Shown one piece after another: positions 660-55,390 of a DNA stretch of 64,000 bases. The notes under the pieces were generated by a model. It was not told the DNA's origin and did no database searches. It saw nothing but the letters and a program-made list of their open reading frames with translations. This DNA is from Afifella aestuarii (GTDB taxonomy: Bacteria; Pseudomonadota; Alphaproteobacteria; Rhizobiales; Afifellaceae). Positions within the stretch are counted from its first letter, which is position 1. Each line of letters starts with the position of its first letter. Both the position numbers and the translations under genes were made by a program. Location of the stretch: positions 186,001 through 250,000 of the forward strand of contig NZ_SAUF01000002.1 in the NCBI RefSeq assembly GCF_004023665.1, written 5' to 3'.

Positions 660-723
660 CCTGACCTCCCATGTCGTGTGATCGTTGGGGCGAAATTGGC
701 AGAAACCGATCTCGACGTCCACG

Positions 724-740
724 TATGATTGTATGAGCAG
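724..740. promoter_or_regulatory. Operator A, candidate GntR site
   Basis: TATGATTGTATGAGCAG matches operator B in front of dctP at 16 of 17 positions. It is built as two TATGA units 8 bp apart. It lies just upstream of a -35-like TTGACG (748-753; 17 bp to AACACT at 771-776) for the liv operon and overlaps a TACAAT -10-like element for the divergent aldehyde dehydrogenase. Assignment to the GntR protein encoded at 12943-13653 is inference. Confidence 0.6.
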
Positions 741-788
741 TTTTCACTTGACGAGCGCGTTTGATGCCGCAACACTTCATTCAATAAG

Positions 789-797
789 ACAATCATA
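789..797. promoter_or_regulatory. Inverted half-operator near liv start
   Basis: ACAATCATA is the exact reverse complement of TATGATTGT at 724-732. The two arms flank the predicted liv -35/-10 region, as expected for repression by occlusion or looping. The copy lies 16 bp before the start codon of the binding-protein gene. Confidence 0.45.
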
Positions 798-812
798 GAG
801 TGGGAGGAAAAT

Positions 813-2138: not shown

Positions 2139-2180
2139 CCGGCGCCACCGCAAACGTTCAACATTTCGCTAGAGAGCTGC

Positions 2181-4728: not shown

Positions 4729-4738
4729 GGTCGGCAAA

Positions 4739-5464: not shown

Positions 5465-5484
5465 ACGCGCTCACCGTATCCGAC

Positions 5485-5511
5485 AAAAAACGGGCGCCCG
5501 CGGGCGCCCGT
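5485..5511 (-). terminator. Intrinsic terminator between livF and the lactonase-like gene
   Basis: A perfect 20-bp palindrome of CGGGCGCCCG units (5491-5510) is preceded by six A residues, which become a U-tract on the minus strand. This ends the minus-strand transcript. On the plus strand the hairpin is followed only by TTT, so it may also end the liv operon, less efficiently. Confidence 0.8.
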
Positions 5512-5539
5512 TTGCCGTTCGGGAAGAGGGGAGGATCTC

Positions 5540-6349
5540 TTACCCTGCCGGCTCTTTCGGGTCGGCGTCGAGGCGCACGACGACGCCTTCAAGGCCCGAA
5601 CTCGGGGCTGGGTAGCGGTCGAGAATGATCGGGTCGTGCCCTGGAATGACGTTCGAGCGATCGCTCGCGAGCTCCCAGAGCCGGTCATAGCCCTCAAGCG
5701 TCGCAGCAAGGCTGTGCAGCACCGGAAAGGCGCGGCCCTCGTTCATATTGGCATAGAAATGGCTGGCATCGGAGGCGACGACGAGCCAGCCGCGCCGCGT
5801 CCAGACCCGGACCACCTGCAGCCCTTTGGAATGGCCGCCGACATGATGGACGCTGATGCCGGGTGCGATCTCCGAAGCGCCGTCGTGGAACTTGACGCGG
5901 CCGGCAAAGACCTTGCGCACCATCGCCACCACATCCTCTTCCTCGAAGGGGAGCTTGAGCGCGCCGTGGCACATGCAGCGGCCGGTCGAATACGCCATCT
6001 CTGCGTCCTGCAGATGGTAGTGCGCATTCGGGAAGAGATCGTAATTGCCGCAATGGTCGTAGTGCATATGCGAGATGATGACGTCTTCGATCCCGTCCGG
6101 ATCGATGCCGATCGTCTTCAGGCCCTCGCCGGGCGAGCGAAGGAACTGCCGCTTGCGCTTTTCCGCCATCGCCGCATCGAAGCCGGTATCGACGATGAAG
6201 GTGCGGCCGTTGCCCTTGATCGCCCAGACGAAATAGTCGAGCGGCATCGGCACGTCATGCGGATCGCCGCCGACGAAATTGTGCGCGGCGGTCGCGGCCG
6301 GATTGTGCGCATAGCGGACCGCGTAGACCTCATAAGGTTCAGGTGTCAT
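5540..6349 (-). CDS. Metallo-beta-lactamase-fold hydrolase, AHL-lactonase-like
   Basis: Cytoplasmic zinc hydrolase, 269 residues, of the N-acyl-homoserine-lactonase-like branch (AttM/AiiB type by overall architecture). The metal-binding motif is HMHYDHCG (94-101), with further ligands His173 (GGHSKG), Asp194 (VASDA) and His238 (PGHDP), so the dinuclear site is complete. ATG is preceded by GGGAGGAAAG. It lies downstream of an alpha/beta hydrolase in a catabolic cluster, so it more likely opens a pathway lactone than quenches signalling; the true substrate is unknown. Nearby there is no luxI/luxR pair. Confidence 0.85.
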   Translation of the reverse strand: MTPEPYEVYAVRYAHNPAATAAHNFVGGDPHDVPMPLDYFVWAIKGNGRTFIVDTGFDAAMAEKRKRQFLRSPGEGLKTIGIDPDGIEDVIISHMHYDHCGNYDLFPNAHYHLQDAEMAYSTGRCMCHGALKLPFEEEDVVAMVRKVFAGRVKFHDGASEIAPGISVHHVGGHSKGLQVVRVWTRRGWLVVASDASHFYANMNEGRAFPVLHSLAATLEGYDRLWELASDRSNVIPGHDPIILDRYPAPSSGLEGVVVRLDADPKEPAG

Positions 6350-6444
6350 CTTTCCTCCCTTCCGACCGGCCGCGCTCTTGTTGTTCGGTGGGGCGCGGGC
6401 CGGTTCCTGTGCATGGGTGACCGCGTTTGGCGGGGTGAGGGCGG

Positions 6445-7287
6445 TCAGTCGGCCTCCATCACCTCAAGTTCCGGCAGAAGATACTGACGGAAGAGGGCAT
6501 AGTTCTCGATCATCGGGAAGTGGCCCATGCCTTCCATCTCGGTGTAGCGGCAGCCGGGAATGGCGGCGGCCACTTTCTCCGTCATCGCCGGCGTGCACGA
6601 ATAATCGTAGCTGCCGGTGAGAAGGCTCACCTTGCACTTGGCGGTGTCGATCGTCTTCACATGTTCGCGGGCATCGAAATCGAAGCTGTAGAACATGACG
6701 TCGCCGCGATAGACGCCGGGGCCGGACTGCGCGTAGTACCACCAATTGTCGCGCTTGCCCTCTTCGGGGCTTTGCGGCGCGTTGAGGCCGAACGTGTAGG
6801 TGGCGACGAGTTCGCCGCCATGCACGGCCGGATGCAGCAGGAATTCGTTGTAGCGGCCGGGCGCGTGCGCGGCGCTTTCGAGCCCGATGATGCCACGGAT
6901 CTCGTCCTGGAAGTCGCTAGCGACCCTGAGCACGATGGCCCCGCCCATGGAGCAACCCATGACCACGGGACGGTCGAGCTGGAGACCCTTCCATAGGGCT
7001 TCGATGGTCGCGAGATACTCTTCCGTCTTGAGCTCGTAGGATTCCAGCCACCATTCGTCCGGCGGGTCGGAGCGGCCATGCCGGGGCATGTCGAAGCAAA
7101 CGACCCGAAACCGGCGCGTCACCTCTTCGTCGTTGAGGAGATGGCGGAACTGGCGGCTGTCGGCCCCGGCGGTATGCAGGCAGAGGAGGGGGATGCCCTC
7201 ACCGGCTTCTTCCACATAGATGCGGTGGTTGCGGCCTTGGATCGCCACATTGAGGTAGCGGCCGACGATCGGTTCGAATTCAGGCAT
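6445..7287 (-). CDS. Alpha/beta-fold hydrolase
   Basis: Serine hydrolase of 280 residues. The nucleophile elbow is GCSMGG (Ser113), with probable acid Asp228 (TGSYDYS) and His256 (MGHFPM), a complete triad. An oxyanion-hole LHTAG segment is at 37-41. The length and pattern resemble enol-lactonase or meta-cleavage-product hydrolases. GGGGAAAGAGC precedes the ATG. The start overlaps the end of the SCP2-like gene by 8 bp, so the two are co-translated. With the lactonase-like enzyme just downstream this suggests consecutive hydrolytic steps; the substrate is unknown. Confidence 0.88.
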   Translation of the reverse strand: MPEFEPIVGRYLNVAIQGRNHRIYVEEAGEGIPLLCLHTAGADSRQFRHLLNDEEVTRRFRVVCFDMPRHGRSDPPDEWWLESYELKTEEYLATIEALWKGLQLDRPVVMGCSMGGAIVLRVASDFQDEIRGIIGLESAAHAPGRYNEFLLHPAVHGGELVATYTFGLNAPQSPEEGKRDNWWYYAQSGPGVYRGDVMFYSFDFDAREHVKTIDTAKCKVSLLTGSYDYSCTPAMTEKVAAAIPGCRYTEMEGMGHFPMIENYALFRQYLLPELEVMEAD

Positions 7288-7678
7288 GCTCTTTCCCCAC
7301 CTTCTGCATCAGGCCCATCATGCGGTGCAGGGCACGCGCGTTCTGCATCGCCACGAGCGTGTCGCCTTCGAGAACGAATTCCGGCACGCGCATGATCATG
7401 GCGAAGATGTCGTGGTAGAGCGGCGGCGGCGTCTCGCTCAAAAAGCGTTGCCACAGCTCCATCGGGGCGCGGATCTCAAATTGCGTGGGGACGTCGAAGC
7501 CGGGGGCCGGCAGGATTTTTTCGATCTTGCCCTGGCGCACCCGCAAGACGTAGCGGCGCTCGCCAAAGGTGATGCCCATATCGACGTCGAACTTGCCGCC
7601 GATGATGGCAAGCTCTCGGTCTGAGGCGACCCTGTCGGCAAAGGCGGCCATCCAATCCGGGTCAGGAAATTCAGCCAT
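7280..7678 (-). CDS. Small SCP2-like (sterol-carrier fold) protein
   Basis: A 132-residue soluble protein. The central part (IIGGKFDVDMGITFGERRYVL and following) has the strand pattern and dipeptide spacing of SCP2-type lipid-binding domains, but I recognise it only as a family resemblance. There is no signal peptide or catalytic motif. It overlaps the downstream hydrolase by 8 bp, which ties it functionally to that enzyme, perhaps as a binding or activating partner for a hydrophobic substrate. The start has GGA 7 bp upstream. Confidence 0.65.
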   Translation of the reverse strand: MAEFPDPDWMAAFADRVASDRELAIIGGKFDVDMGITFGERRYVLRVRQGKIEKILPAPGFDVPTQFEIRAPMELWQRFLSETPPPLYHDIFAMIMRVPEFVLEGDTLVAMQNARALHRMMGLMQKVGKEHA

Positions 7679-7751
7679 TTCGGTATCCTTGTCGTCGAAG
7701 GCGGGCCGGGGCAGGGCCTCTGGCTCGCCAGGTCGGAGCCTCGCGCATAAG

Positions 7752-7785
7752 AAGGCGGCGCGAACTCTTCTGAGCCGCGCCGCTT
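7752..7785 (-). terminator. Possible hairpin terminator after the cupin gene
   Basis: AAGGCGGCGCG and CGCGCCGCTT pair into a stem with one bulged G, directly after the cupin stop codon on the minus strand. The downstream U-tract is weak (TTCTT), so it may attenuate rather than end transcription into the SCP2-like gene. Confidence 0.4.
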
Positions 7786-7789
7786 GCCT

Positions 7790-8185
7790 TTACGCGCCGT
7801 ATTGCTCGTCGGTGACGTGCTCCAGCCATTCGACGACGACGCCGTCATGGCCTTCCTGCATGGAGATGTGGGTCATCATCGTGTTGGGACCCGCACCATG
7901 CCAATGCTTCTCGCCGGGCGGGATCCAGATGACGTCGCCGGCCCGGATCTCCTGGATCGGCCCGTCCCATTTCTGGATGCGGCCGGTGCCCGCGGTGACG
8001 TAAAGCGTCTGCCCCATCGGATGCGTGTGCCAGGCCGTGCGGGACCCCGGCTCGAACATGACCACGTTCGACTTCAAAAGCGCCGGCTCAGGCGCCTCGA
8101 TGATCGGGTCCTGCCAGACATTGCCCGTGAAGGATTTTGCCGGTGCCTTGCGGGTCGGCAGAGTTCCAAGACGTCTGATCTCCAT
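7790..8185 (-). CDS. Small single-domain cupin
   Basis: A 131-residue cupin. Motif 1 has His53, His55 and Gln59 (HTHPMGQ, 53-59) and motif 2 has GDVIWIPPGEKHWHG with His94/His96, enough for a mononuclear metal site. Proteins of this type act as dioxygenases, isomerases or lactone-processing helpers; the reaction is not predictable. ATG 8185 was chosen over an upstream in-frame start because GGAGAGGAG lies directly in front. It follows dctM by 87 bp and is probably on the TRAP transcript. Confidence 0.88.
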   Translation of the reverse strand: MEIRRLGTLPTRKAPAKSFTGNVWQDPIIEAPEPALLKSNVVMFEPGSRTAWHTHPMGQTLYVTAGTGRIQKWDGPIQEIRAGDVIWIPPGEKHWHGAGPNTMMTHISMQEGHDGVVVEWLEHVTDEQYGA

Positions 8186-8272
8186 ATTTCTCCTCTCCTT
8201 GATGTCGGCCGTTTCGTCCGGCCTGGTCTCCCGCCTTGGCGGGTCGTTCGTTGAGCGGTGGGGCGGCACGCC

Positions 8273-9691
8273 TCATTTGAGGCCATGCGTGAAGCTCTTC
8301 GGCTCCGGGCCCATCAGCGAGTACGGCAGAATGGTCGAAAGCCCCGGCACGTAGGTCGCGATCACGAGGAAGATGAGCATGATGCCGATGAAGGGGGCCG
8401 CAGCCTTCGTCACCTGCACGACGCTCATTCGGGCGACGCTCGCCGTGACGAAGAGATTGAGCCCGATCGGCGGGCTGATCAGCCCGATCTCCATGTTGAC
8501 GACGATCATGATGCCGAGATGGATCGGATCGACGCCGAGCTCCATCGCCACCGGGAACACCACCGGCACGACGATCAGGAGGAGGCCCGAGGGCTCCATG
8601 AACTGGCCGCCGATGAGCAGCAGGATGTTGAGCGCCAGCAGGAAGGTGAACCAGTTGAACCCGGCTCCGATCATCCATTCGGTGATCGTCTGCGGCACCC
8701 GTTCCACCGTCAGCACATGAGCGAAGAGCATCGCGTTGACGACGATGAACATGAGCATGATCGTCGCCTTGCCGGCCTCCACCAGCACATGCTCGGTGTC
8801 GCGATGGAAGCAGGCGGGCACGAAGCGCGTGACCGTGAGGAGGGCGTTGCGCTGCACGGCGCCGATGATCGATTCCCCGTCCTGGCGCCACGGCACGCCG
8901 CGAAGCGGCCCCATATCGCGATAGATGAAGATTGCGACGAGGAAGGAATAGACCGCCGCGACGGCCGCGGCCTCGGTCGGCGTGAAGATGCCGCCATAGA
9001 TGCCGCCGAGGATGACGATAACGAGGAAGAGGCCCCAGGACGCGTCGAGAAAGGCGTCGCGTACGGCCGTAAAGCCCGCGAACGGCAGTTTCGGCATGCC
9101 GCGGAAGCGCGCATTGAGATAGACCCCGACCATCAGCATCAGCCCGGCGACAGTGCCCGGCAGGATGCCTGCGAGGAACATGCGGCTGACGGAAACGTCT
9201 GTGGCAGCGCAGTAGACCACCATGACGATCGATGGCGGAATGAGAATGCCGAGCGTGCCGGCATTGCAGATGATGCCTGCGGCGAATTCCTTCGAGTAGC
9301 CGACCTCGCGCATGCTCGCGATGGCGATCGAGCCGATCGCAACCACGGTCGCGGGCGAAGAGCCGGAAAGCGCGGCAAACAGCATGCACGACATCACCGA
9401 GGCGATCGCGAGGCCGCCGCGGAGATGGCCGACCGCGGAGACCGCGAAGCGGATGATGCGGCGCGCGACGCCACCGGTCGACATGAAGGACGAGGCGAGA
9501 ATGAAGAACGGGATGGCGAGCAGCGTGTAGCTCTGCGAGGCCGTAAAGAGCTTGAGCGCCACCGACGACATGGAATCTCCGGAGAAGAGAACGATCGTCA
9601 GAACGCTCGACAGGCCGAGGGCGAGCGCGACAGGGACGCCGGCGAAGAGAAGCGCCAGAACCGTGATGAACAGGAAGCCGGAGACCATCAT
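8273..9691 (-). CDS. dctM: TRAP transporter large permease DctM
   Basis: Large membrane subunit of a tripartite ATP-independent periplasmic transporter, 472 residues with more than ten hydrophobic segments, consistent with the DctM/IT superfamily. The segment LAGILPGTVAGLMLM and the C-terminal PPIGLNLFV are characteristic. The ATG directly abuts the dctQ stop (TAA-ATG), with the ribosome site inside dctQ. It imports an organic anion with Na+ or H+ together with DctP and DctQ. Confidence 0.94.
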   Translation of the reverse strand: MMVSGFLFITVLALLFAGVPVALALGLSSVLTIVLFSGDSMSSVALKLFTASQSYTLLAIPFFILASSFMSTGGVARRIIRFAVSAVGHLRGGLAIASVMSCMLFAALSGSSPATVVAIGSIAIASMREVGYSKEFAAGIICNAGTLGILIPPSIVMVVYCAATDVSVSRMFLAGILPGTVAGLMLMVGVYLNARFRGMPKLPFAGFTAVRDAFLDASWGLFLVIVILGGIYGGIFTPTEAAAVAAVYSFLVAIFIYRDMGPLRGVPWRQDGESIIGAVQRNALLTVTRFVPACFHRDTEHVLVEAGKATIMLMFIVVNAMLFAHVLTVERVPQTITEWMIGAGFNWFTFLLALNILLLIGGQFMEPSGLLLIVVPVVFPVAMELGVDPIHLGIMIVVNMEIGLISPPIGLNLFVTASVARMSVVQVTKAAAPFIGIMLIFLVIATYVPGLSTILPYSLMGPEPKSFTHGLK

Positions 9692-10387
9692 TTACCTCCG
9701 GTCTTTGGAGTTGTTGTCGTCGTACCAGTGCGGCGCCTCTGAGGCGTGCTCCTGCGCGGCGGCATAGCTCTCGTGGTCGGGATCTGAATGCTGATCCATG
9801 AGCTCGGTCGTCTCGATGGCTGTGGTGATCATCTCCCGCTTGCCCTGGACGATCTCGATCAGCGCCTGCAGGCAGCGGAAGCCGAACAGGAAGAGGCCGA
9901 GGGGCAGGATGAGATAGGCGATCCAGCGATGTACCCGGGCGGGCAGGTCGAACATCTCCTGCGCCCATTCCGGATAGCGGATCTCGGTGAGGCCGATGCC
10001 GGTTTCAAAGGTGCGCAGCCAGTAAGGAAAGGCGCCGCCCTTGGCGTCGATGCCGACGAATTGAAGCCAGTCGGCCCAGAAGAAGATTGCGGCGTAGACG
10101 ATGCCGCAAAGTGCGCCGAAGATCGCAAACGCTTTGAAGAGGTGCCTGGGCAAGGCCCGGACCAGCGTGTCGACCGCCAGATGCGAGCCGATCTTCGCGC
10201 CGTACGCCATGCCGAAGAGAATGAGCCAGGCGAACAGGATGCGCGCGAAATCGAGCGCGCCGAGCCAGCCCGTATTGAACACGTAGCGGGCGATGACCTG
10301 GGTAAAGGACGTGATCGTCATCGCGGCCATCAAGATCGCGATGACGCTGCGCTCGAAGCGGTCGACGCGTCGGCCGAAACTGCTCAT
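9692..10387 (-). CDS. dctQ: TRAP transporter small permease DctQ
   Basis: Small membrane subunit, 231 residues with four predicted membrane spans and the conserved VIARYVFN-type segment near residue 31. The first Met with a fitting ribosome site (AAGGATGGAAG) is at 10387; an upstream in-frame ATG at 10450 would add a polar stretch unlike the family. The charged C-terminal tail (about 45 residues, Asp/His-rich) is longer than usual. It sits between dctP and dctM, the normal TRAP gene order. Confidence 0.92.
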   Translation of the reverse strand: MSSFGRRVDRFERSVIAILMAAMTITSFTQVIARYVFNTGWLGALDFARILFAWLILFGMAYGAKIGSHLAVDTLVRALPRHLFKAFAIFGALCGIVYAAIFFWADWLQFVGIDAKGGAFPYWLRTFETGIGLTEIRYPEWAQEMFDLPARVHRWIAYLILPLGLFLFGFRCLQALIEIVQGKREMITTAIETTELMDQHSDPDHESYAAAQEHASEAPHWYDDNNSKDRR

Positions 10388-10540
10388 CTTCCATCCTTCA
10401 GGGGTTGGATCCTCGCGGCCCTTCGCCGAAAGCGGCGAAGGGAATCTCAATGGCGAGCGGTCCGGCCGGGCGCACGGGCGGCGTGTTCGGCGACGGCATG
10501 TCAGCCGTCACCGCGCTTGTGGGCCCGGCAGAGCCTGCGT

Positions 10541-11539
10541 TCAGGATTTGTTGGACGCGACTGCGGCCTCGATCACATCCTTGCCGATCCCGTCTTCGAA
10601 CTCTTCCCAGACGGGTTTCACGGCATCGACCCATTTCTGCCGCTGTTCAGGAGAGAGCGTGCGGACGGTGACGCCCGCTTCCTGGATGCGCTTTTTGCTC
10701 TCTTCGTTGATGGCCGTGGCCTTCTCGTTGTACTCGTCGCTGACCTCGCCGACGATACCGAGGAACTTCTCGCGCACATCGTCATCCAGGCTGCCGAGGA
10801 AGTCGTCCGAGGTGACGAGAATGTAGGTGAGGAACTGGTGGTTGGTCTCCGTCACCCCGTCCTGCACCTCGTAGAGCTTGCCGGTGTAGATGTTCGACCA
10901 GGTGTTTTCCTGCCCGTCGACGACGCCGGTCTGCAAGGCGCCGAAAGCCTCACTCCAGGCGAGGGGCTGCGGGTTGGCACCGAGGGCCTTGATCATGGCT
11001 ATCGACACGTCCGAGGTGGTCGCGCGGATCTTGAGCCCGTTGAGGTCGGACGGCTCGATCAGGGGCCGGTTCGCCGAAAAGGCCCGCAGACCGTTATAGA
11101 CATAGGCGAGGCCGACGAAGCCGTTGTCCGTCATGGACTTCAGGAGTTCGTCGCCGGTCTCGCTATGGGTGAAGCGCGAAACCGCGTCGGTGTCCTCAAA
11201 CAGGAACGGCAGGTTGAAGACGTCGAGTTTGGCCGTATAGGCGCCGAGCTTGCCGATGTCCGGGGAGGCGAGCTGGATGTCGCCGATCGCCAGCGCTTCC
11301 ATGACTTCATCGTCATTGTAGAGCTGCGAGCTCGGATAGACCTGGATGCAAAGCTGCCCGTCCATCTCTTCGTTGACGCGCTTGGCGAGCGCGGTGGCCA
11401 TCTCGCCCTTCGGATTGCCGGTCGGGGCGCTCACATGGCTGTATTTGATGAGCGTTTCGCCGGACTGGCACTCCGATTGAGCCATGGCCGTGCTGGCCAG
11501 AAGGCTCATTGCGAGAGCTGTGAGAATGGTGGTTTTCAT
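10541..11539 (-). CDS. dctP: TRAP transporter solute-binding protein DctP
   Basis: Periplasmic binding protein of 332 residues. A clear Sec signal (MKTTILTALAMSLLAS, cleavage after ASTAMA) precedes the mature DctP domain, with the family arginine-containing segment LKIRATTS that grips a substrate carboxylate. GGGAGGACAC precedes the ATG at 11539; in-frame codons further upstream lie in the promoter. The presence of the carboxylate-binding segment supports an organic acid as ligand. The gene has its own promoter with operator B. Confidence 0.94.
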   Translation of the reverse strand: MKTTILTALAMSLLASTAMAQSECQSGETLIKYSHVSAPTGNPKGEMATALAKRVNEEMDGQLCIQVYPSSQLYNDDEVMEALAIGDIQLASPDIGKLGAYTAKLDVFNLPFLFEDTDAVSRFTHSETGDELLKSMTDNGFVGLAYVYNGLRAFSANRPLIEPSDLNGLKIRATTSDVSIAMIKALGANPQPLAWSEAFGALQTGVVDGQENTWSNIYTGKLYEVQDGVTETNHQFLTYILVTSDDFLGSLDDDVREKFLGIVGEVSDEYNEKATAINEESKKRIQEAGVTVRTLSPEQRQKWVDAVKPVWEEFEDGIGKDVIEAAVASNKS

Positions 11540-11596
11540 CGTGTCCTCCCTGGTGATCACTCTTCCCGCTCGTTCAGTGGCGGAAGCTGAAGTGAG

Positions 11597-11605
11597 CTGA
11601 TCATA
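11597..11605. promoter_or_regulatory. Inverted half-operator near dctP start
   Basis: CTGATCATA is the exact reverse complement of TATGATCAG within operator B, 26 bp away. This mirrors the arrangement of a full site plus an inverted half site in the liv promoter. Confidence 0.45.
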
Positions 11606-11623
11606 GGCCTTGGGCCAAGTCAA

Positions 11624-11655
11624 TATGATTGTATGATCAGAATATTTCAGAACAA
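11624..11655 (-). promoter_or_regulatory. dctP promoter with operator B
   Basis: On the minus strand TTGTTC (11650-11655), a 16-bp spacer and TACAAT (11628-11633) form a plausible sigma-70 promoter. The -10 element is embedded in TATGATTGTATGATCAG (11624-11640), nearly identical to operator A at 724-740. Binding there would block RNA polymerase directly. Confidence 0.6.
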
Positions 11656-11767
11656 TTTTGCAGGCGACAGCCCGCGCTTTCCGCGCGTGCTGCCGTCGCA
11701 GAGCTGTACTTTATGCAGATAGAAAAGCGCTACGCTGCTCTGTGCGGCCGCCGCGCCTTCCCGGAAT

Positions 11768-12673
11768 TCAGCCGGTGGCGCCGTCGCTGCGCAGGCTGAC
11801 GCCGGCGGCTTTCTCCGTCAGCGTCACCACCTTGGTGAAATCGGAATCCGCGCCGAGCTTGTCGACGGCCTCCTGCCAGATATCAAAGACCGTTTCGCAG
11901 CCGGGCAGGCTGAGGCCCATCGACTTGGCGACCTCGTTGAAGAGCTTGACGTCCTTGAACATGAGCCCGGAGGAGAAGCCGTAATCGAAGGTGCCCGGCA
12001 GGATCGACTGGGGGAATTTCTGCATGGTCGCAGTGTTGCGACCGCTGCCGGCATTGATGACGTCGATCATCACATCCGGGGAGAGGCCGGCCTTGGCGCC
12101 CATCGCCACGGCTTCGGAGCTCAGCGCCATGGCGGCCGCCGACAAGAGATTGTTGACGAGCTTCATTGTCTGGGCGAGGCCCGGCTTGTCGCTCACATAG
12201 AACGGCTTGCCGATCGCCTTGAGCTGCGGCAGGAGGTTGTCATAGTCGGCTTTCGGCCCGGAGAACATGACGGCGAGAGTGCCAGCTTTGGCGCCGCCGA
12301 CGCCGCCGCTCACCGGGGAATCGAGCCAGGTCACGCCCTTGTCCTGCATCTTTTTCGCCAGCGTTTCCGCCATTTGCGGACCCGTCGTGGACAGATCCAC
12401 GATCCGCTTCACCTGGTTTCCTTCCGCGAGCCCCTTCTCGCCGAAGGCGACGGCCTCCACGATCGGCGGCGTCGGAAGCGACAGGAAGACAGTGTCGACC
12501 TGAGAGGCGAGATCGGCCGCCGAATTTGCCGCCTTGGCGCCGCGCTCCACAAAGGGTGCGATTGCACTTTCGCGTGCATCATAAACGACGAGCGGGTTGC
12601 CGGCGTCCAGCAGGCGCCCGGCCATCGGGACGCCCATATTTCCAAGACCGATGAAGCCGATTTTGTCGCTCAA
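11768..12673 (-). CDS. NAD(P)-dependent dehydrogenase, 3-hydroxyisobutyrate dehydrogenase family
   Basis: Beta-hydroxyacid dehydrogenase of 301 residues. The Rossmann motif GLGNMG is at 9-14, the substrate-binding DSPVSGG at 118-124, and the catalytic Lys171 lies in the MKLVNN segment. The family includes 3-hydroxyisobutyrate dehydrogenase and tartronate-semialdehyde reductase; the sequence does not discriminate between them. A TTG start at 12673 is chosen because GGAGGAATATC precedes it and it places residue 1 just before the first beta strand; no ATG fits. It probably acts in the same pathway as the aldehyde dehydrogenase. Confidence 0.88.
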   Translation of the reverse strand: MSDKIGFIGLGNMGVPMAGRLLDAGNPLVVYDARESAIAPFVERGAKAANSAADLASQVDTVFLSLPTPPIVEAVAFGEKGLAEGNQVKRIVDLSTTGPQMAETLAKKMQDKGVTWLDSPVSGGVGGAKAGTLAVMFSGPKADYDNLLPQLKAIGKPFYVSDKPGLAQTMKLVNNLLSAAAMALSSEAVAMGAKAGLSPDVMIDVINAGSGRNTATMQKFPQSILPGTFDYGFSSGLMFKDVKLFNEVAKSMGLSLPGCETVFDIWQEAVDKLGADSDFTKVVTLTEKAAGVSLRSDGATG

Positions 12674-12809
12674 GATATTCCTCCACGATTGGCGGCTCGA
12701 CAGCCTGCCGATTATTCGTTGCGATGGCAGGATTTTGCCTGCAGCGGCCTCATCCGACGCCGTCGCAGGAACCCGCAAGCGGAGGCACCTTATCGGTCTT
12801 AATACCGTA

Positions 12810-12816
12810 ATACAAT
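12810..12816. promoter_or_regulatory. Weak ATTGTAT match upstream of the dehydrogenase
   Basis: ATACAAT (ATTGTAT on the minus strand) is the core shared with operators A and B. It stands in an AT-rich patch with TAATAC repeated at 8-bp spacing, between the gntR stop and the dehydrogenase start. The match is short and could be chance. Confidence 0.25.
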
Positions 12817-12942
12817 ATTATTAGTGGTTGATCGCGCGTCCTGCGTGTCCTGATTGAGGCACGCAGAACATGAAGCCCCGGGTCGCAGGCGGTGCCGAAG
12901 ATGAGGGGCGGGTGGGCCTTGTCTGGCGCGAAAAGCGGGCCT

Positions 12943-13653
12943 TCAGGCGCGCCGCTTCTTGTCGCGCGTATCCATGGAAAACGTATGCATGGCCGCTGCC
13001 GCGGCACGCCGCACATGGTCCGTGGCGATCGACTTCGCTCCAGCAGCGTCGCGGCGGTCGAGCGCGTCGAGGAGGCTCTGCAGCTCGCTCAGACTCTGCT
13101 GCCAGCGATTGGGGGCCTGCAGCGATTGCGCCCGCAACAGCATGGTGCGCGCGTTGAGCATATAGAGCGTCTTGCCCAAGGCTTCGTTGCCGGTGCCTGT
13201 GACCAGACAATCGTAGAACTTGTTCTTCAGCGCGATGCGTGTCGCGGCGATATCGGCCTTCTTGACCTCCTCGAACGCGGCTTTCAGCGCCTCGCGGTCG
13301 TTATCCGTCGCGTGCTCGGCAAAGAGCTCCGCCGCCAGGCCTTCCAGCACTTCGCGCACCTGATAAACGCCGATCGCCTGCGCCGCTGTGATCCGTGAGA
13401 CCACCGGTCCCTTATGGGCGATCACCTCGATGAGGCCTTCCGATTCGAGCTGGCGGAGGGCTTCGCGCACGAGCGTTCGGCTGACGCCCGTCATCTCGCA
13501 CAAATCGCGCTCCGGCATGCGCTCGCCCGGGCGAAACCGCCCGGCTGCAATGGCCTGACGGATGCTTTCCGTAACGCTGTGGCGCAAAGTTGCCGCCGGG
13601 CGCGGAACGCGGAATTCCTCGTCCCTCACCTTCGTTTCATTCATTCCGGGCAC
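12943..13653 (-). CDS. GntR-family (FCD) transcriptional regulator
   Basis: A 236-residue repressor or activator with an N-terminal winged helix (about residues 23-85; recognition region DLCEMTGVSRTLVREALRQLE) and an all-helical FCD ligand domain (about 90-225). FCD regulators normally sense organic acids of the pathway they control. The GTG start at 13653 has AAGGGGAA 7 bp upstream; ATG 13644 is the alternative but is badly spaced. It is the first minus-strand gene of the island and is the best candidate for binding ATGATYGYATGA, of which a degenerate copy lies 111 bp upstream of its start. Confidence 0.9.
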   Translation of the reverse strand: MPGMNETKVRDEEFRVPRPAATLRHSVTESIRQAIAAGRFRPGERMPERDLCEMTGVSRTLVREALRQLESEGLIEVIAHKGPVVSRITAAQAIGVYQVREVLEGLAAELFAEHATDNDREALKAAFEEVKKADIAATRIALKNKFYDCLVTGTGNEALGKTLYMLNARTMLLRAQSLQAPNRWQQSLSELQSLLDALDRRDAAGAKSIATDHVRRAAAAAMHTFSMDTRDKKRRA

Positions 13654-22235: not shown

Positions 22236-23582
22236 CTAAACGGCAGTCGAATGCGTGGCCGCACGCGTCCCGAGATAAGCGTCGAAAGAAGCAGCAACGC
22301 TGCGCACGAAGGGCCTGCCCCGATCGGTGACGACGAAGCGATCGCCGACGCGTGAGAAGAGCCCATCGGGGTCCGATTCCGCGAAATAGCGCGCATCGTT
22401 GATGACGGGATCGGCCAGCGCACCGAAATGCGCTTTCAAGGTCCCGGCCGAGAAGGCGAAGTCGCACAACAGCCGCTCGATCACGAAGGCCCGAACCCTG
22501 TCGGCCTGAGAAAGCTCGAAACCACGAACGGTCGCAAGCTCACCCTTTTCGATCTCGGCCGCGTAGCGACGGGTCGTCTTCTCGTTCTGCAGATAGCCCT
22601 GCGGGAGCTTGCTGATGGACGATGCGCCGAAACCGATGAGTGCGTCGGCCTCGTCCGTCGTATAGCCCTGGAAATTGCGGTGGAGACGACCTTCCCAAGC
22701 CGCCACGGCAAGAGAATCTTCCGGCACGGCGAAATGGTCGAAGCCGATGCGCTGATACCCGGCGCCGGTGAAGAGCGTCGCTGCACGATTGGCCTGCGCA
22801 AAGCGCTCCAGAACGTCAGGCAGCTCGTCCGTCGGGATCATCTTCTGGCGTGGGATGACCGATGGCACATGCGCGTAGCCGAAGAGAGCCACGCGGTCCG
22901 GCCGGAGGGTCAGGATCTGTTCGACCGTGTGTACGAGCTTGTCCCGGCTCTGATACGGCAGGCCGTAGACGAGATCGACGTTGATGGAGCGGATGCCGGC
23001 GGCACGCAGTCGATTGACGGCCGATTCCGTCTCCTCGAAGCTCTGCATACGGTTGATGGAGGCCTGCACCTTCGTGTCAAAGTCCTGCACGCCGATCGAG
23101 GCGCGGGTGAAGCCGGCTTTTGCGAGCGCTTCCACACGCGCATCGTCGAATTCGCGCGGATCGATCTCGATCGCGAATTCCGCATCTGCCGCGGACGGGA
23201 AGGCCTCGCGGATCGCCGAGGCGAGCTCGATGATGTCGTCCGGCTTCAGCAAGGTCGGCGAGCCGCCGCCCCAATGCACGCCCTCGACGTTGATGTCCGG
23301 CGCAAGCTCGGCCACGAGCTTCAGCTCGTCCTTCAGCGTCTTGAGATACGGCAGCACCGGATCGTAGCGCAGCACGTGCCTGGTGGTGCAGCCGCAGAAC
23401 CAGCACAGCGTATCGCAGAACGGGATGTGGAAGTAGAGCGAGGCCCTGGTATTGGGCTTGAGCTCTTTCAGCCAGGCTTTCGCGACCTTGCCGTCCACTT
23501 CTTCGTTGAAGTGGGGCGCCGTCGGATAACTGGTGTAACGCGGCACAGGCGCCGCGTATTTGCGGACGAGATCAGGAACCAT
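22236..23582 (-). CDS. hemN: Oxygen-independent coproporphyrinogen III dehydrogenase
   Basis: Radical SAM enzyme, 448 residues, that decarboxylates coproporphyrinogen III to protoporphyrinogen IX without oxygen. The 4Fe-4S motif is CDTLCWFC (Cys56, Cys60, Cys63), followed by the family Cys/Gly pattern CGCTT. The N-terminus RYTSYPTAPHF is diagnostic of true HemN rather than HemW. ATG 23582 matches the usual family start but has no ribosome-binding sequence. An FNR box is centred 41.5 bp upstream, so the mRNA may be leaderless and anaerobically induced. It lets haem synthesis continue under low oxygen. Confidence 0.95.
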   Translation of the reverse strand: MVPDLVRKYAAPVPRYTSYPTAPHFNEEVDGKVAKAWLKELKPNTRASLYFHIPFCDTLCWFCGCTTRHVLRYDPVLPYLKTLKDELKLVAELAPDINVEGVHWGGGSPTLLKPDDIIELASAIREAFPSAADAEFAIEIDPREFDDARVEALAKAGFTRASIGVQDFDTKVQASINRMQSFEETESAVNRLRAAGIRSINVDLVYGLPYQSRDKLVHTVEQILTLRPDRVALFGYAHVPSVIPRQKMIPTDELPDVLERFAQANRAATLFTGAGYQRIGFDHFAVPEDSLAVAAWEGRLHRNFQGYTTDEADALIGFGASSISKLPQGYLQNEKTTRRYAAEIEKGELATVRGFELSQADRVRAFVIERLLCDFAFSAGTLKAHFGALADPVINDARYFAESDPDGLFSRVGDRFVVTDRGRPFVRSVAASFDAYLGTRAATHSTAV

Positions 23583-23616: not shown

Positions 23617-23630
23617 TTGATCAATGTCAA
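23617..23630 (-). promoter_or_regulatory. FNR/FixK-type anaerobox for hemN
   Basis: TTGATCAATGTCAA fits the FNR/FnrL/FixK consensus TTGAT-N4-RTCAA in both half sites. Its centre lies 41.5 bp from the hemN ATG. TAGAAA at -13 to -8 relative to the ATG would serve as the -10 element. This is a class II activator geometry if transcription starts at the ATG itself. Confidence 0.8.
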
Positions 23631-23837
23631 AGAGGAAATCGGCCGCCGCAAGGTTTGACGCGCACGCCGGCATGTCCTCTTGCAATCTGAACGGCTTGGC
23701 AAACCGAGAAGCCCCGCGAACGCCGCCTTGCGCCTCCCCTTTCTCGGTGCGCCGCGAGGCCTGCGCATGCCCGGCGAAGCGGCCCTCTCGACAAGATTCG
23801 TGGACAAGGTGCCGCTTCGTCATCTATCCCTGCGGCG

Positions 23838-23850
23838 GTGGTGATTATCA
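23838..23850. repeat. Short palindrome GGTGATTATCACC
   Basis: A 13-bp palindrome (GGTGAT-T-ATCACC), 64 bp upstream of the hydroxyacid dehydrogenase start. It may be an operator for that operon; no regulator gene is adjacent. Confidence 0.35.
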
Positions 23851-23913
23851 CCGCCGCTCGCCTCTGCCATGGGCTTGCCGTTTCCTCCCGAAGGCCCGGT
23901 CGTTTCAGGAAAA

Positions 23914-24849
23914 ATGTCCGACATCGTCATTTCCGAGTTTATGGATGAGGCAGCCGTTGCGCGCCTGTCCGCTCGCTTCTCCACTCTTTACGCCCCCGAT
24001 CTTGCCGAAAAGCCCGATGCACTGAAGGCGGCGCTCACAGAAGCGCGAGCCTTGATCGTCCGAAACCGCACCGAGGTGCGGGCGGATCTGATCGAGGGGG
24101 CCGATGCGCTCGAATGCGTCGGCAGGCTCGGCGTCGGCGTCGACAACATCGATACGCAATGCTGCGCCCGGCGCGGCATCGCCGTTTATCCGGCCGCTGC
24201 CGCGAACGCTCTGTCCGTTGCCGAATATGTGATCTCGACTGCGCTTCTGCTTCTGCGCGGCGCCTATCTCTCCACGCCTGCCGTCGCCGCCGGGCAATGG
24301 CCGCGTGGAGAGCTGATGCACGGTCGCGAAGCGAGCGGCAAGGTGATCGGTCTGGTTGGTTTCGGCGCGAGTGGCCGTGAAACGGCGCGTCGTGCCGAGG
24401 TGCTCGGCCTCGACGTCATCGCCACCGACCCGCATATCCCAGCCTCCGACGCGGCGTGGAACGAGGCGCCGCGCACCGACCTGTCGACGCTTCTTGCCGA
24501 AGCCGACGTCGTCAGCCTGCATGTCCCGCTGACGGACGAGACGCGCTATCTGATCGATGCGGCTGCGCTCGCCCGCATGAAGCCCGGCGCGATCCTGATC
24601 AACGCCGCACGTGGCGGCATCGTCGATGAGACGGCGCTTGTCGCGGCCCTGAAGGAGGGCCGGTTGGGCGGTGCCGCGCTCGACGTCTTCGAAACCGAGC
24701 CGTTGACGGCCGAAGCGGGAGCCGTCTTTGCGGATCTGCCGAATGTGGTTTTGACGCCGCATATCGCGGGCCTTACCGCAGAATCGAACCTGCGTGTCGG
24801 GCGGGTCATCGCCGATGCGGTCATCAATCACCTCGAGGGCCGCAAGTGA
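23914..24849 (+). CDS. D-2-hydroxyacid dehydrogenase, SlcC ((S)-sulfolactate dehydrogenase)-like
   Basis: NAD-dependent D-isomer-type hydroxyacid dehydrogenase, 311 residues. The Rossmann motif is GLVGFGASG in place of the usual GxGxxG. Catalytic residues are Arg (ARGG segment), Glu (FETEP) and His (TPHIAG). The N-terminal ISEFMDEAAV is, from memory, very like SlcC of Chromohalobacter, which oxidises (S)-sulfolactate. ATG 23914 has AGGA upstream. The next gene, ComC-like, overlaps by 4 bp; the SlcC/ComC pair racemises sulfolactate via sulfopyruvate. Other D-hydroxyacid substrates remain possible. Confidence 0.8.
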   Translation: MSDIVISEFMDEAAVARLSARFSTLYAPDLAEKPDALKAALTEARALIVRNRTEVRADLIEGADALECVGRLGVGVDNIDTQCCARRGIAVYPAAAANALSVAEYVISTALLLLRGAYLSTPAVAAGQWPRGELMHGREASGKVIGLVGFGASGRETARRAEVLGLDVIATDPHIPASDAAWNEAPRTDLSTLLAEADVVSLHVPLTDETRYLIDAAALARMKPGAILINAARGGIVDETALVAALKEGRLGGAALDVFETEPLTAEAGAVFADLPNVVLTPHIAGLTAESNLRVGRVIADAVINHLEGRK

Positions 24850-25847
24850 CCCATATGCGACTTGGCGAATTGCGGCATCTCGTGGAGGCCGCCTTGACCG
24901 CCTCGCGGGTCAGCCCGGAAAACGCCGCCTCCGTCGCCCGCGCGCTCGTCGCCGCCGAAGCCTGCGGCCAGACGAGCCACGGCCTTCGCCGCGTCGAGGC
25001 CTATTCCGCGCAAGCGCGCGCCGGCAAGATCGACGGCTTTGCGGTGCCGACGACCGAAGTCGTCCGACCCGCCACGCTTTCCATCGATGCGGCGCACGGC
25101 TTTGCCTATCCCGCGCTTGATCTGGCTCTCGCCGAACTGCCGCCGCTTGCGCGCCTCCAGGGGCTGGCGATGGCAGGGATCAAGCGCTCCAGCCATTGCG
25201 GCGCCATGGGCGTGACGGTCGAAGCCTTCGCCGAAGCGGGGCTCGTGGCTCTCATGTTCGCCAACGCGCCGGGCGCCATGGCTCCCTGGGGCGGGCGCAG
25301 CCGTCTTTACGGCACCAATCCGATCGCTTTTGCGGCCCCCCGCAAGGATGCCGCTCCGGTGGTCGTCGACTTGTCGCTGTCGCAGGTGGCACGCGGCAAG
25401 GTGATGGCGGCCAAGCAAAGGGGCGAGGAAATCCCGGAGGGCTGGGCCTTCGATGAGGCGGGCAAGCCGACCACCGATCCGGTCGAGGCGCTTGCCGGCA
25501 CGATGGCGCCGCTCGGCGGGGCCAAGGGGACGGCGCTTGCTCTTATGGTGGAAATGCTTGCCGCCGGTCTCAACGGCGCCAGTTATGCGAGCGAGGCGAG
25601 TTCCTTCTTCGACGCCGAGGGTGGCCCTCCGAACACCGGTCAGCTCATCATCGCCATCGATCCCACGGCCTTCGGCGCCGACGCCATCGGCCGCTTCGGC
25701 GACCTGGCCGCGATGATCGAGGCCGATCCTCCCGCCCGTGTGCCGGGTGCGCGGCGCCAGGCGCTCCGGGCGGAGGCGGAAGAGAAGGGAATTGAAATGG
25801 ATGACGCGGTGATCGCCGCGGTTCGGGCGATCGCCGGCATCGAATGA
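24846..25847 (+). CDS. Ldh2/YlbC-family dehydrogenase, ComC ((R)-sulfolactate dehydrogenase)-like
   Basis: NAD(P)-dependent oxidoreductase of the malate/L-lactate dehydrogenase (type 2) family, 333 residues. The catalytic His lies in SSHCGAMG (about residues 116-123), and the NPIAF and GGAKGTALALMVE segments are family marks. The GTG start overlaps the upstream stop (GTGA) with GAGGG 6 bp before it; ATG 24855 is in frame but poorly spaced. Members reduce sulfopyruvate, 2,3-diketogulonate or ureidoglycolate. Pairing with an SlcC-like partner favours a two-step stereoinversion of a hydroxyacid. Confidence 0.85.
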   Translation: MTHMRLGELRHLVEAALTASRVSPENAASVARALVAAEACGQTSHGLRRVEAYSAQARAGKIDGFAVPTTEVVRPATLSIDAAHGFAYPALDLALAELPPLARLQGLAMAGIKRSSHCGAMGVTVEAFAEAGLVALMFANAPGAMAPWGGRSRLYGTNPIAFAAPRKDAAPVVVDLSLSQVARGKVMAAKQRGEEIPEGWAFDEAGKPTTDPVEALAGTMAPLGGAKGTALALMVEMLAAGLNGASYASEASSFFDAEGGPPNTGQLIIAIDPTAFGADAIGRFGDLAAMIEADPPARVPGARRQALRAEAEEKGIEMDDAVIAAVRAIAGIE

Positions 25848-25865
25848 CAGGAATGGGAGTGAGGC

Positions 25866-27323
25866 ATGCTGCAGAAGACGCATTACTGGAAACGTGAAGC
25901 CAATCTGATCGGCGGCGAATGGGTTGGAGCCGATTCCGGCGAGACGATCGACGTCACCAATCCGGCGACCGGCGAGACGATCGGAACCATCCCGAAATGC
26001 GGCAAGGCCGAGACCGAGCGCGCCATCGAGGCCGCTGCTGAGGCCTTCGAGAGCTTCAAGACGACGAGCGCCGACGAGCGCGCCAAGCTGTTGCGCGCCC
26101 TGCACGACGCCATCATGGACAATCAGGATGCGCTCGCTGAGCTCCTCACTCTGGAGCAGGGCAAGCCCTTGACGGAATCGCGAGGCGAGGTCGGCATGAG
26201 TGCGGCCTATGTCCTGTGGTTCGCCGAAGAGGCGCGCCGCGTCTACGGGGATCTCATTCCGTCCCCGTGGAAAGACCGCCGCATCATGGTGACGAAGCAG
26301 CCGGTTGGCGTCATCGGCGCCATCACGCCGTGGAACTTCCCGTCCTCGATGCTGTCGCGCAAGATCGGTCCGGCGATCGCTGCAGGCTGCACCGCCGTCG
26401 TCAAGCCGGCGACGCAGACGCCTTATTCGGGCCTTGCCTGGGGTGCGCTCTGCGAAGAGGTCGGCATTCCGAAAGGCGTGGTCAATGTCGTCACCGGGTC
26501 CGCCAAGGATATCGGTGCGGCGCTCATGGAAAGCCCGAAGGTTCGAAAAGTCACCTTCACCGGTTCGACGGATGTCGGCAAGGTTCTGATCCGCCAGTCG
26601 GCGGACACCGTGAAGAAGGTTTCGATGGAGCTCGGCGGCAACGCGCCGTTCCTGGTTTTCGATGATGCCGATATCGACCGCGCGGTCGCTGGTGGCATTG
26701 CCGCGAAATTCAGGAATTCCGGCCAGACCTGCGTCTGCACCAACCGCTTCTACGTCCAGGCCGGCATTTACGACCGTTTCGCCGAGAAGTTCGCCGAAGC
26801 CGCCAAGGGCCTGAAAGTCGGCTCCGGCCTCGAAGAGGGGACGCAGCAGGGCCCGCTCATCGACGACAATGCGGTCGCCAAGGTCGAAGAGCTGATCGGC
26901 GATGCCGTCGACAAGGGCGGCAAGGTCATTGCCGGCGGCAAGCGCCACGAACTCGGCGGGACGTTCTTCGAGCCGACCGTGATCGCCGATGCGAAGCCCG
27001 ACATGCGCTTCTCTAAGGAAGAGATCTTCGGTCCGGTTTCGCCGCTCTTCAAATTCGAGACGGAGGAAGAGGCGGTCGCGCTTGCCAATGACACGGAATA
27101 CGGTCTCGCCTGCTATTTCTACACGCAGGATCTCGGCCGTGCGTTCCGCGTCTCAGAAGGGCTCGATTATGGCCTCGTCGGCGTCAACGAGGGCGTCATC
27201 ACGACGGAGGTCGCTCCCTTCGGCGGCGTCAAGGAATCCGGCCTCGGACGCGAAGGCTCCAAATACGGCATCGACGATTATTTGGAGATCAAATACGTCT
27301 GCATCGGCGGTCTCGGGCTCTAA
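25866..27323 (+). CDS. NAD(P)-dependent succinate-semialdehyde dehydrogenase type (GabD-like)
   Basis: Aldehyde dehydrogenase of 485 residues. It has the oxyanion Asn in TPWNFPSSM, the catalytic Glu in MELGGNAPFLVF, and the catalytic Cys in GQTCVCTNRF. The C-terminal KESGLGREGSKYGIDDYLEIKY ending is GabD-like. GabD-type enzymes also include sulfolactaldehyde dehydrogenase, which would feed (S)-sulfolactate to the neighbouring SlcC/ComC pair; that is inference. The ribosome site is GGGAGTGAGG, 18 bp after the upstream stop. A terminator follows. Confidence 0.92.
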   Translation: MLQKTHYWKREANLIGGEWVGADSGETIDVTNPATGETIGTIPKCGKAETERAIEAAAEAFESFKTTSADERAKLLRALHDAIMDNQDALAELLTLEQGKPLTESRGEVGMSAAYVLWFAEEARRVYGDLIPSPWKDRRIMVTKQPVGVIGAITPWNFPSSMLSRKIGPAIAAGCTAVVKPATQTPYSGLAWGALCEEVGIPKGVVNVVTGSAKDIGAALMESPKVRKVTFTGSTDVGKVLIRQSADTVKKVSMELGGNAPFLVFDDADIDRAVAGGIAAKFRNSGQTCVCTNRFYVQAGIYDRFAEKFAEAAKGLKVGSGLEEGTQQGPLIDDNAVAKVEELIGDAVDKGGKVIAGGKRHELGGTFFEPTVIADAKPDMRFSKEEIFGPVSPLFKFETEEEAVALANDTEYGLACYFYTQDLGRAFRVSEGLDYGLVGVNEGVITTEVAPFGGVKESGLGREGSKYGIDDYLEIKYVCIGGLGL

Positions 27324-27349: not shown

Positions 27350-27382
27350 GGCCTCTCCCTCATCCGAGGGGGAGGCCTTTTT
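27350..27382 (+). terminator. Intrinsic terminator of the dehydrogenase operon
   Basis: GGCCTCTCCCTC and GAGGGGGAGGCC form a 12-bp stem with one T-G wobble and a 4-nt loop, followed by TTTTT. Confidence 0.9.
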
Positions 27383-27476: not shown

Positions 27477-28016
27477 TCAATTCCGCCGCAGGGGCTCGCG
27501 ATGCCAGTTGCCGGCGCCTGCCGGCGTGAGGTCCGACAGATCGAGCCGTGCGAGAATCTCGCTTGCCGGACGCTCGCCGATCTTCGCCGTCGGCCAAAGA
27601 TCGACAAGCGGCTTGAGGGCAAAGCTTCGTTCCGTCAGGTGCGGATGCGGGATCGACAGCTCTGGCTCGGCGAGGAGCTCTTCGCCGTAGACCAGAATGT
27701 CGATATCGATGACGCGCGGCCCCCAAGGTTCTGTACGAATGCGGCCAAGCTCCTTCTCAACCTCGAGAAGAGCCGCGAGCAGGCGCCGTGGGCTCAGCTG
27801 CGTTTCGATCAGAAGCGCCGAATTGGTGAAATCGGGCTGGTCGGTTTTTCCCCATGGCCGGCTCACATAAAGCGGAGCGGCGGCGGTCACGGTGACCCCG
27901 TCCACATTGGCGATGGCCTTCGCGGCTTTGCGAAAAGTGTCCGCCGGATCGCCGAGATTGGCTCCGAGCCCCAGCACGGCCTTGACGGCGCCGCAGGCGA
28001 GGCTGCGGTGAATCAT
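27477..28016 (-). CDS. folK: 2-amino-4-hydroxy-6-hydroxymethyldihydropteridine pyrophosphokinase
   Basis: HPPK of folate biosynthesis, 179 residues, transferring pyrophosphate from ATP to 6-hydroxymethyl-7,8-dihydropterin. GLGANLGD near the N-terminus and WGPRVIDIDILVYG are the family signature, with the Mg-binding Asp pair in IDIDI. ATG 28016 has GAGG 7 bp upstream and gives the usual short lead before the first strand. It stands alone here, without folB or folP. Confidence 0.94.
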   Translation of the reverse strand: MIHRSLACGAVKAVLGLGANLGDPADTFRKAAKAIANVDGVTVTAAAPLYVSRPWGKTDQPDFTNSALLIETQLSPRRLLAALLEVEKELGRIRTEPWGPRVIDIDILVYGEELLAEPELSIPHPHLTERSFALKPLVDLWPTAKIGERPASEILARLDLSDLTPAGAGNWHREPLRRN

Positions 28017-55376: not shown

Positions 55377-55390
55377 CGAATGCGCCCCGA

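Follow-up and report, generated by a model that had tools for sequence, protein, structure and literature searches.

Published accounts of sulfolactate degradation treat SlcC and ComC as its racemase arm. They reportedly form a two-dehydrogenase sulfolactate racemase in Chromohalobacter salexigens, an account ascribed to Denger and Cook in 2010. Here we analyse the slcC-comC-gabD genes (the trio) of Afifella aestuarii, which lie in a 64,000-nucleotide stretch of DNA, called the window throughout; the window genome, from an Afifella near A. marina, comprises 3.9 Mb in 8 contigs, with a completeness of 100. The module itself is already known, and what is new is that the lyase SuyAB is missing; no paper linking Afifella with sulfolactate was found in the one open-licence library searched. 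On balance, we lean to the view that an ancestral cluster for sulfolactate(aldehyde) degradation, gntR-suyA-suyB-tctC-tctA-slcC-comC-gabD, lost SuyAB, its transporter and its local regulator, and that the trio is the enzyme core left over from it, working as proposed below.

Four described systems come close to this locus (the papers cited here by PMC number are used in excerpt). The C. salexigens pair, compared by description and not by sequence, likewise consists of a SerA-like and an Ldh_2-family dehydrogenase, and its SlcC oxidises (S)-sulfolactate, not 3-phosphoglycerate (PMC6303947), whereas the window genome is without SuyB and has lineage-specific changes at invariant positions. For the SlcC/ComC-SuyAB cluster of Paracoccus wurundjeri, two listed carriers, Sinorhizobium mexicanum (L010) and Paracoccus onubensis (L088), have the pair at about 60% identity beside suyAB (PMC12421959); the excerpt describes the P. 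wurundjeri strain as being without a GabD/SlaB homologue, whereas in the window gabD adjoins the pair and suyAB is missing. The roseobacter scheme for 2,3-dihydroxypropane-1-sulfonate (DHPS), with GabD-2, HpsO, HpsP, SlcC, ComC and SuyAB, has the same three steps of GabD, SlcC and ComC (PMC11131964), whereas the window genome lacks SuyB and matches HpsN only at HisD level (37%), HpsO and HpsP not having been searched genome-wide. Finally, the window GabD has the catalytic Cys, the WNF tripeptide, both proposed sulfonate-binding arginines and the Cys-x-Cys of RlGabD from Rhizobium leguminosarum, but the arginine pair is given in the excerpt as common to succinate-semialdehyde dehydrogenases (SSADH) and so does not separate the two enzyme kinds (PMC10599462). 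The chemistry that a preliminary description of the window had assigned to the trio, sulfolactaldehyde to sulfolactate with inversion through sulfopyruvate, fits these schemes (PMC11131964, PMC12421959, PMC11382572).

The trio and its descent

The arrangement first noted, an slcC-like gene overlapping a comC-type gene with a gabD-like gene third, was found again as three open reading frames (ORFs, called with a simple codon-scoring script of our own in place of a published gene finder), all on the + strand, with a 4-bp overlap between the first two and gabD beginning 18 bp past comC. The slcC-like gene (23914..24849, 311 amino acids, Pfam PF02826/PF00389) encodes a SerA-like 2-hydroxyacid dehydrogenase of the (S)-sulfolactate dehydrogenase type. 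The comC-like gene (24846..25847), of the (R)-sulfolactate dehydrogenase type, encodes 333 amino acids from GTG 24846 or 330 from ATG 24855 and is the sole PF02615 (Ldh_2) match genome-wide (333 bits). The gabD-like gene (25866..27323, 485 amino acids, PF00171 at 572 bits) encodes a candidate sulfolactaldehyde dehydrogenase, assigned through its neighbourhood. Five Afifella genomes were compared: the window genome (G000), A. marina DSM 2698 (G001, L049) and G003, together called this lineage, and the sister pair A. pfennigii DSM 17143 (G002, L050) and G004. An ORF 15 codons longer would start slcC at 23869, but in G003 a 1-nt gap shifts the frame of these added codons, so ATG 23914 is the likely start.

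The pair had been placed in the SlcC/ComC group, and gene neighbourhoods bear this out. Among the best 80 named loci, of at least 527 in a ComC-alignment scan of genome contigs, SlcC lies directly upstream of ComC in 53, SuyB is present in 51 and both are in 45; because the order recurs in this way, the slcC-comC adjacency is not due to chance. Ten of the 80, A. marina included, also have gabD on the same strand within 200 bp after comC; among their sources are Afifella, Aquibium, Rhizobiaceae and Mesorhizobium, and in seven of the ten an aldose-1-epimerase-family gene follows gabD (by Pfam in two, by homology in the other five). A tblastn search found slcC and comC adjoining, at 59-64% identity, in eight plasmid records, and in four of the five inspected for neighbours a SuyAB-type gene pair adjoins them, together with varying sets of transporter or sulfite-exporter genes. 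On the plasmids of P. seriniphilus, P. aestuarii and M. radiotolerans, the annotation shows two neighbouring genes of the UxaA family (SuyA/SuyB type) together with a transporter and an exporter of the YeiH or TauE type, and an unannotated stretch of Sinorhizobium mexicanum holds predicted ORFs homologous to gntR, suyA, suyB and yeiH. P. ferrooxidans has both exporter kinds and a tripartite transporter near the pair, with SuyB about 13.5 kb off on the same plasmid.

The closest comparison is within the genus. At the same chromosomal place, A. pfennigii and G004 carry gntR-suyA-suyB-(hemN, opposite)-tctC-tctA-slcC-comC-gabD-folK, with one more ORF past folK, and the window genome, A. marina and G003 carry hemN-slcC-comC-gabD-folK. 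The two syntenic anchors in the window, both on the - strand, are a hemN-like radical S-adenosylmethionine gene (22236..23582, identified by Pfam and synteny), which stands between suyB and tctC in A. pfennigii and G004, and folK (27477..28016), downstream in all five genomes. On a ComC tree of 81 rows, this lineage is one clade (100/100) and sister to A. pfennigii and G004 (98/96), so that the phylogenetic check called for at the outset places the window ComC with suyAB-linked proteins. The next-nearest rows (L051, L055 and L080) are all suyB-linked. L051, a metagenome-assembled genome named Afifella, has gntR-suyA-suyB-slcC-comC-gabD in a single run, an order shared by L066, L075, L090, L121 and L127, some with extra genes between. 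There is good support for the descent of the trio from a module for sulfolactate (SL).

The protein sequences agree with this placement. The window SlcC is 54-97% identical to 21 SlcC rows of comC-containing loci, mostly suyAB-linked, and R50-N51-R52-T53 as well as R233, E262 and H283 are invariant across this alignment; the latter three we take, by motif, to be the catalytic Arg/Glu/His triad. Neither the SlcC-like nor the ComC-like protein reaches an NCBIfam cut-off. ComC scores 183.8 bits, against a cut-off of 500, on NF040650, a model named L-sulfolactate dehydrogenase, which does not cover the bacterial suyAB-linked ComC group and does not decide the matter, because two suyAB-linked ComC proteins also score 186 and 160 bits. 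The two active-site histidines and the substrate arginine of the Ldh_2 family are present in ComC: counted from ATG 24855, H42, R46 and H114 correspond in the alignment to His44, Arg48 and His116 of AllD, and S41 to Ser43 (PMC3527362).

Missing lyase, transporter and regulator

At the locus, the window genome, A. marina and G003 lack suyAB, gntR and the SL-type transporter, and we infer that these were lost in this lineage. The initial remark that the window holds no suyAB or sulfolactate transporter is correct, and SuyB is absent from the whole genome as well: no match at E 0.001 was found in any of the three genomes (SuyA was not searched by itself), and G002 and G004 have SuyB at 80 and 82% identity. 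A search of 61 genomes, with the window genome counted, placed SlcC in 22 of them at no less than 49% identity and 292 bits, the best match in the next genome being 201 bits. Nineteen of the 22 also have SuyB at 77% or above, in some as contig-edge fragments; it is missing only in this lineage. Eight named loci have the pair without a full SuyB; seven of these genomes have SuyB elsewhere (in three as contig-edge fragments only, one of them at the edge of the same contig as the pair) and A. marina has none. Twenty-one named ComC loci lack SlcC and SuyB alike; SuyB lies elsewhere in 5 of these genomes, and the other 16 have none.

Other markers were equally negative in the window genome. Its best Xsc match (288 bits) is under the cut-off of 676, true Xsc being present in G002 and G004, and its only HpsN match is the HisD-level one, against 65% in G004. 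Sulfopyruvate decarboxylase beta reaches 33 bits (123 in G002, 144 in G004; the cut-off of 221.5 is reached by none of 11 genomes, and ComD was not searched separately), and there is no CuyA family member (238 bits in G002, 287 in G004; cut-off 289.4, reached by none of the 11). The best match to the SL-type tripartite transporter is at 43% identity, compared with 87% in G004 and 100% in G002, the query itself. GH31 matched none of the 11 genomes and was positive in 6 of 14 control genomes. Thus no sulfonate-cleaving enzyme (SuyAB, CuyA, or ComDE with Xsc) was found, these negatives covering the markers named and not HpsO, HpsP, ComA, SlcD, glycyl-radical sulfonate lyases, sulfite exporters or the GntR regulator. 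The genome search for suyAB and sulfoquinovose genes that the preliminary description had proposed therefore came out negative for SuyB and GH31, and the lack of sulfonate genes that it had named as telling against a sulfolactate role is what we found for SuyB, Xsc, HpsN, GH31, sulfopyruvate decarboxylase, the CuyA family and the SL-type transporter. A working sulfolactate breakdown route in this organism is not borne out, no cleaving enzyme having been found among the markers searched.

The predicted operator of the cluster is missing from the window too. The exact palindrome TCTTATATAAGA occurs in 26 of 37 gntR-suyA intergenic regions (A. pfennigii twice; 25 of 36 genomes, for example L050, L051, L066 and L075). 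Among the 80 named ComC loci, TCTTA-N2-TAAGA is found in 29 of the 51 with SuyB versus none of the 29 without; it is absent from three Paracoccus plasmid loci (L011, L012, L014), and palindromes of the same composition average 0.6 of the 80 loci, with 6 as the largest. Neither TCTTA-N2-TAAGA nor an exact TCTTATATAAGA site occurs anywhere in the window, and allowing up to 3 mismatches yields no more matches than chance would. We predict from these occurrences that TCTTATATAAGA is likely the operator of the sulfolactate-cluster GntR regulator, lost here together with the regulator.

The trio is preceded by a conserved leader or promoter region of 111 bp (23803..23913, + strand), in which 4 of 109 sites differ between the window genome and G003, versus 41 of 106 in the two 55-column blocks before it. 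It holds a palindrome, GGTGATTATCACC (23840..23852, no strand assigned), a possible operator and the sole GGTGA-N3-TCACC in the window, which reads GGTGAATATCACC in G003 and GGTGGCTATCACC in A. marina; none of 37 gntR-suyA regions tested has GGTGATTATCACC. No riboswitch or other known RNA scored above gathering in the leader, and its fold is not clearly better than that of shuffled sequences (z -1.19). A hairpin of 12 pairs with a T run, resembling an intrinsic terminator, follows gabD (27350..27377, + strand) and is kept in the three species of this lineage. Elsewhere upstream, an FNR/FixK-like box, TTGATCAATGTCAA, lies at 23617-23630, 34 nt before hemN, with half-sites kept in all five Afifella genomes; across the window, one-mismatch matches to such a box are no commoner than expected by chance.

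Present role of the trio

The trio is under purifying selection and not decaying. The ratio of nonsynonymous to synonymous divergence (dN/dS; Nei-Gojobori, pairs within this lineage) is 0.047-0.076 for slcC, 0.079-0.089 for comC and 0.026-0.028 for gabD, within the span of the flanking genes (hemN 0.013-0.021, folK 0.065-0.088, glycosyltransferase 0.104-0.159). Both slcC and comC are intact in the three species, with dN/dS below 0.09 at a dS of 0.23-0.45. Between the more distant, suyB-bearing G002 and G004, the values are 0.239 for slcC, 0.176 for comC, 0.092 for gabD, 0.143 for hemN and 0.393 for folK.

We propose that GabD would form (S)-sulfolactate by oxidising (S)-sulfolactaldehyde (or would act on a comparable short anionic aldehyde), that SlcC would oxidise (S)-sulfolactate to sulfopyruvate, and that ComC would reduce sulfopyruvate to (R)-sulfolactate or run in reverse; a similar small anionic hydroxy acid may take the place of sulfolactate. 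The product may be exported, or the keto acid transaminated, and not desulfonated, a proposal made because no known sulfonate-cleaving enzyme was found. Stereochemistry fits the passage from GabD to SlcC, because the product of the first, S-sulfolactate formed from S-sulfolactaldehyde (PMC11382572), is the substrate of the second, GabD-2 acting on both enantiomers (PMC11131964). The trio probably does something other than full sulfolactate breakdown, and it is along these lines that we infer its present substrates, reaction direction and product fate. It seems to us rather doubtful that this lineage went further and made of the catabolic module a newly regulated, stand-alone node of sulfolactaldehyde, sulfolactate and sulfopyruvate, one without a known sulfonate-cleaving enzyme, that would serve sulfonate synthesis, export or cysteate formation or would supply an undescribed desulfonating enzyme.

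Several observations weigh against the survival of an enzyme core that still handles sulfolactate. The activities assigned to SlcC, ComC and GabD are predictions. This lineage has changed SlcC at three positions invariant in 52 of 52 other SlcC proteins (L76V, G96A, I153S) and at one kept in 50 of 52 (A154G). ComC carries G41S, where 52 of 52 others are invariant, as well as H113S (kept in 50 of 52, with Gly in the two sister sequences), K177Q (kept in 48 of 52) and changes at less conserved sites. The changes at invariant and near-invariant positions could have altered substrate or cofactor. Overall, SlcC departs from 11 of 138 well-kept columns (median 4, largest 30), a high number exceeded outside this lineage only by L063 and L104; ComC departs from 9 of 140 (median 5, largest 17), which is above the median and not extreme. 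Ser41 does not itself exclude sulfolactate, because the five solved ComC relatives shown of 13, including the archaeal sulfolactate dehydrogenase 2x06, have Ser there, and Gly41 is rather a mark of the bacterial suyAB-linked group. The window GabD exceeds the cut-off of the SSADH model TIGR01780 (690.9 versus 646.35), and a 77% identical homologue exists in G006, a genome without SuyB or a close SlcC or ComC. Residues were rejected as a means of telling sulfolactaldehyde from succinate semialdehyde as substrate, the arginine pair being common to both enzyme kinds; because of this and of the G006 homologue, gene order is what links GabD to sulfolactate. The early suggestion that GabD oxidises sulfolactaldehyde thus stands as far as the ten comC-gabD neighbourhoods carry it, and is weakened by the SSADH match. 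No sulfolactaldehyde-making gene was identified in searches limited to GH31 and HpsN.

These changes fit a repurposing after suyAB loss, which we regard as possible and hold tentatively: the two enantiomers that SlcC and ComC now interconvert would be those of a different small anionic 2-hydroxy acid (malate or 2-hydroxyglutarate, for instance), with succinate semialdehyde or a related aldehyde as the substrate of GabD. One of the altered ComC sites is the equivalent of AllD Ser43, where S43A drops kcat/Km for ureidoglycolate from 54.3 to 0.13 (PMC3527362), and an archaeal ComC reduces oxaloacetate at 31% of its sulfopyruvate rate, according to excerpted literature. The operator and regulator of the sulfolactate cluster are gone from the locus, and an 11-row ComC clade from Rhizobium, Thalassospira and relatives, without adjoining SlcC or genomic SuyB, indicates that ComC-type enzymes can have other jobs. 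Set against the suyB-bearing sisters, SlcC also leans to more change in 20 of 20 relative-rate comparisons; these are non-independent, and the difference is not significant. An accelerated evolution after suyAB loss was rejected, however: only 5 of 60 Tajima relative-rate tests (own script) fall below 0.05, the smallest at 0.024 and none convincing after correction, and the long ComC stem (0.49 versus 0.23) is not by itself evidence of acceleration. The RNRT motif, the catalytic residues and the SlcC-ComC pairing are moreover all retained, which speaks against repurposing.

A conserved trio without an exit is odd unless its product is used, and the strong constraint would suit full sulfolactate or sulfolactaldehyde breakdown continuing through an undescribed sulfonate-cleaving enzyme; this is improbable given that SuyB has no match at E 0.001 or better, that the CuyA family, Xsc and sulfopyruvate decarboxylase stay under their cut-offs and that the SL-type transporter has gone too. 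It is very unlikely that the trio is a decaying relic in which only gabD is useful, as an SSADH, with slcC and comC on their way out. The dN/dS of gabD, lowest of the trio, its SSADH match, the lack of any other GabD homologue above 38% identity in G004 and the presence of comC-gabD without slcC or suyB in L072 agree with it, but slcC and comC are intact and constrained, the conserved leader precedes slcC and not gabD, and the window genome has a second GabD homologue (58%). Equally remote is a trio older than its link to suyAB, with suyAB and the transporter gained here by A. pfennigii and G004 and never present in the A. marina lineage, since, although hemN splits the cluster in those two genomes as if the locus had been rearranged and the wider 21-row ComC group around Afifella includes the SuyB-less 11-row clade, L051 and five other loci have the cluster in the same order and the nearest rows of the ComC tree are suyB-linked.

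Related loci and meaning of the finding

On the ComC tree, the rows of the 16 genomes without SuyB require at least four changes, and 11 of them (L081, L093, L100, L105, L108, L109, L111, L112, L116, L118, L123) form the single clade within the wider Afifella group. These orphan ComC proteins, from Rhizobium, Neorhizobium, Thalassospira and other Rhizobiales, are 57-63% identical to the window ComC. Nine neighbours from six of the loci, tried as a hint to substrate, are unrelated (ExbB/ExbD/TonB, SURF1, glucoamylase, a sensor kinase, a solute-binding protein and others) and were uninformative. The metagenome-assembled L103 (Proteobacteria bacterium isolate BEIJ2, 97-13544) holds hpsO/hpsN-like genes, ABC transporter parts, a LacI regulator and gntR, then slcC-comC-gabD and an epimerase-family gene, possibly a cluster for taking up and oxidising sulfonates in which gabD covers the sulfolactaldehyde step. 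L072 (8953-13447) has comC-gabD-epimerase without slcC or suyAB, the best genomic SuyB match being 32%; the cluster may have been reduced a second time here, with the caveat that this genome, too, is metagenome-assembled.

Within the window itself, the - strand at 8273-13644 carries a tripartite ATP-independent periplasmic (TRAP) solute-binding protein (DctP), a PF03446 hydroxyacid dehydrogenase and a GntR/FCD regulator, and two ORFs after dctP resemble the remaining, putative TRAP subunits. As a supply of DHPS or sulfolactaldehyde this cluster (about 8273-12637) received no assignment, its PF03446 protein scoring 146 bits against a sulfolactaldehyde reductase cut-off of 348; tartronate-semialdehyde reductase was likewise rejected (174 against 341). 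A SAM_alpha riboswitch (55375-55452, - strand; 79 bits, gathering 36) lies just before an ORF at 54132-55319 on the same strand.

The sulfolactaldehyde dehydrogenase step is reported as missing in sulfofucose degradation in the excerpt of PMC12421959, and the slcC-comC-gabD genes that accompany suyAB in other Rhizobiales are candidates for such a step. The Afifella genomes are a natural experiment, in which sister species with and without the lyase can be compared at one chromosomal place, and those without it still have the racemase arm and the aldehyde dehydrogenase under selection. Should these enzymes continue to use sulfolactate, a genome unable to cleave sulfonates may nevertheless convert them, and slcC, comC or gabD alone would be poor markers of sulfonate mineralisation; if they do not, the residues changed in this lineage would point to determinants of specificity.

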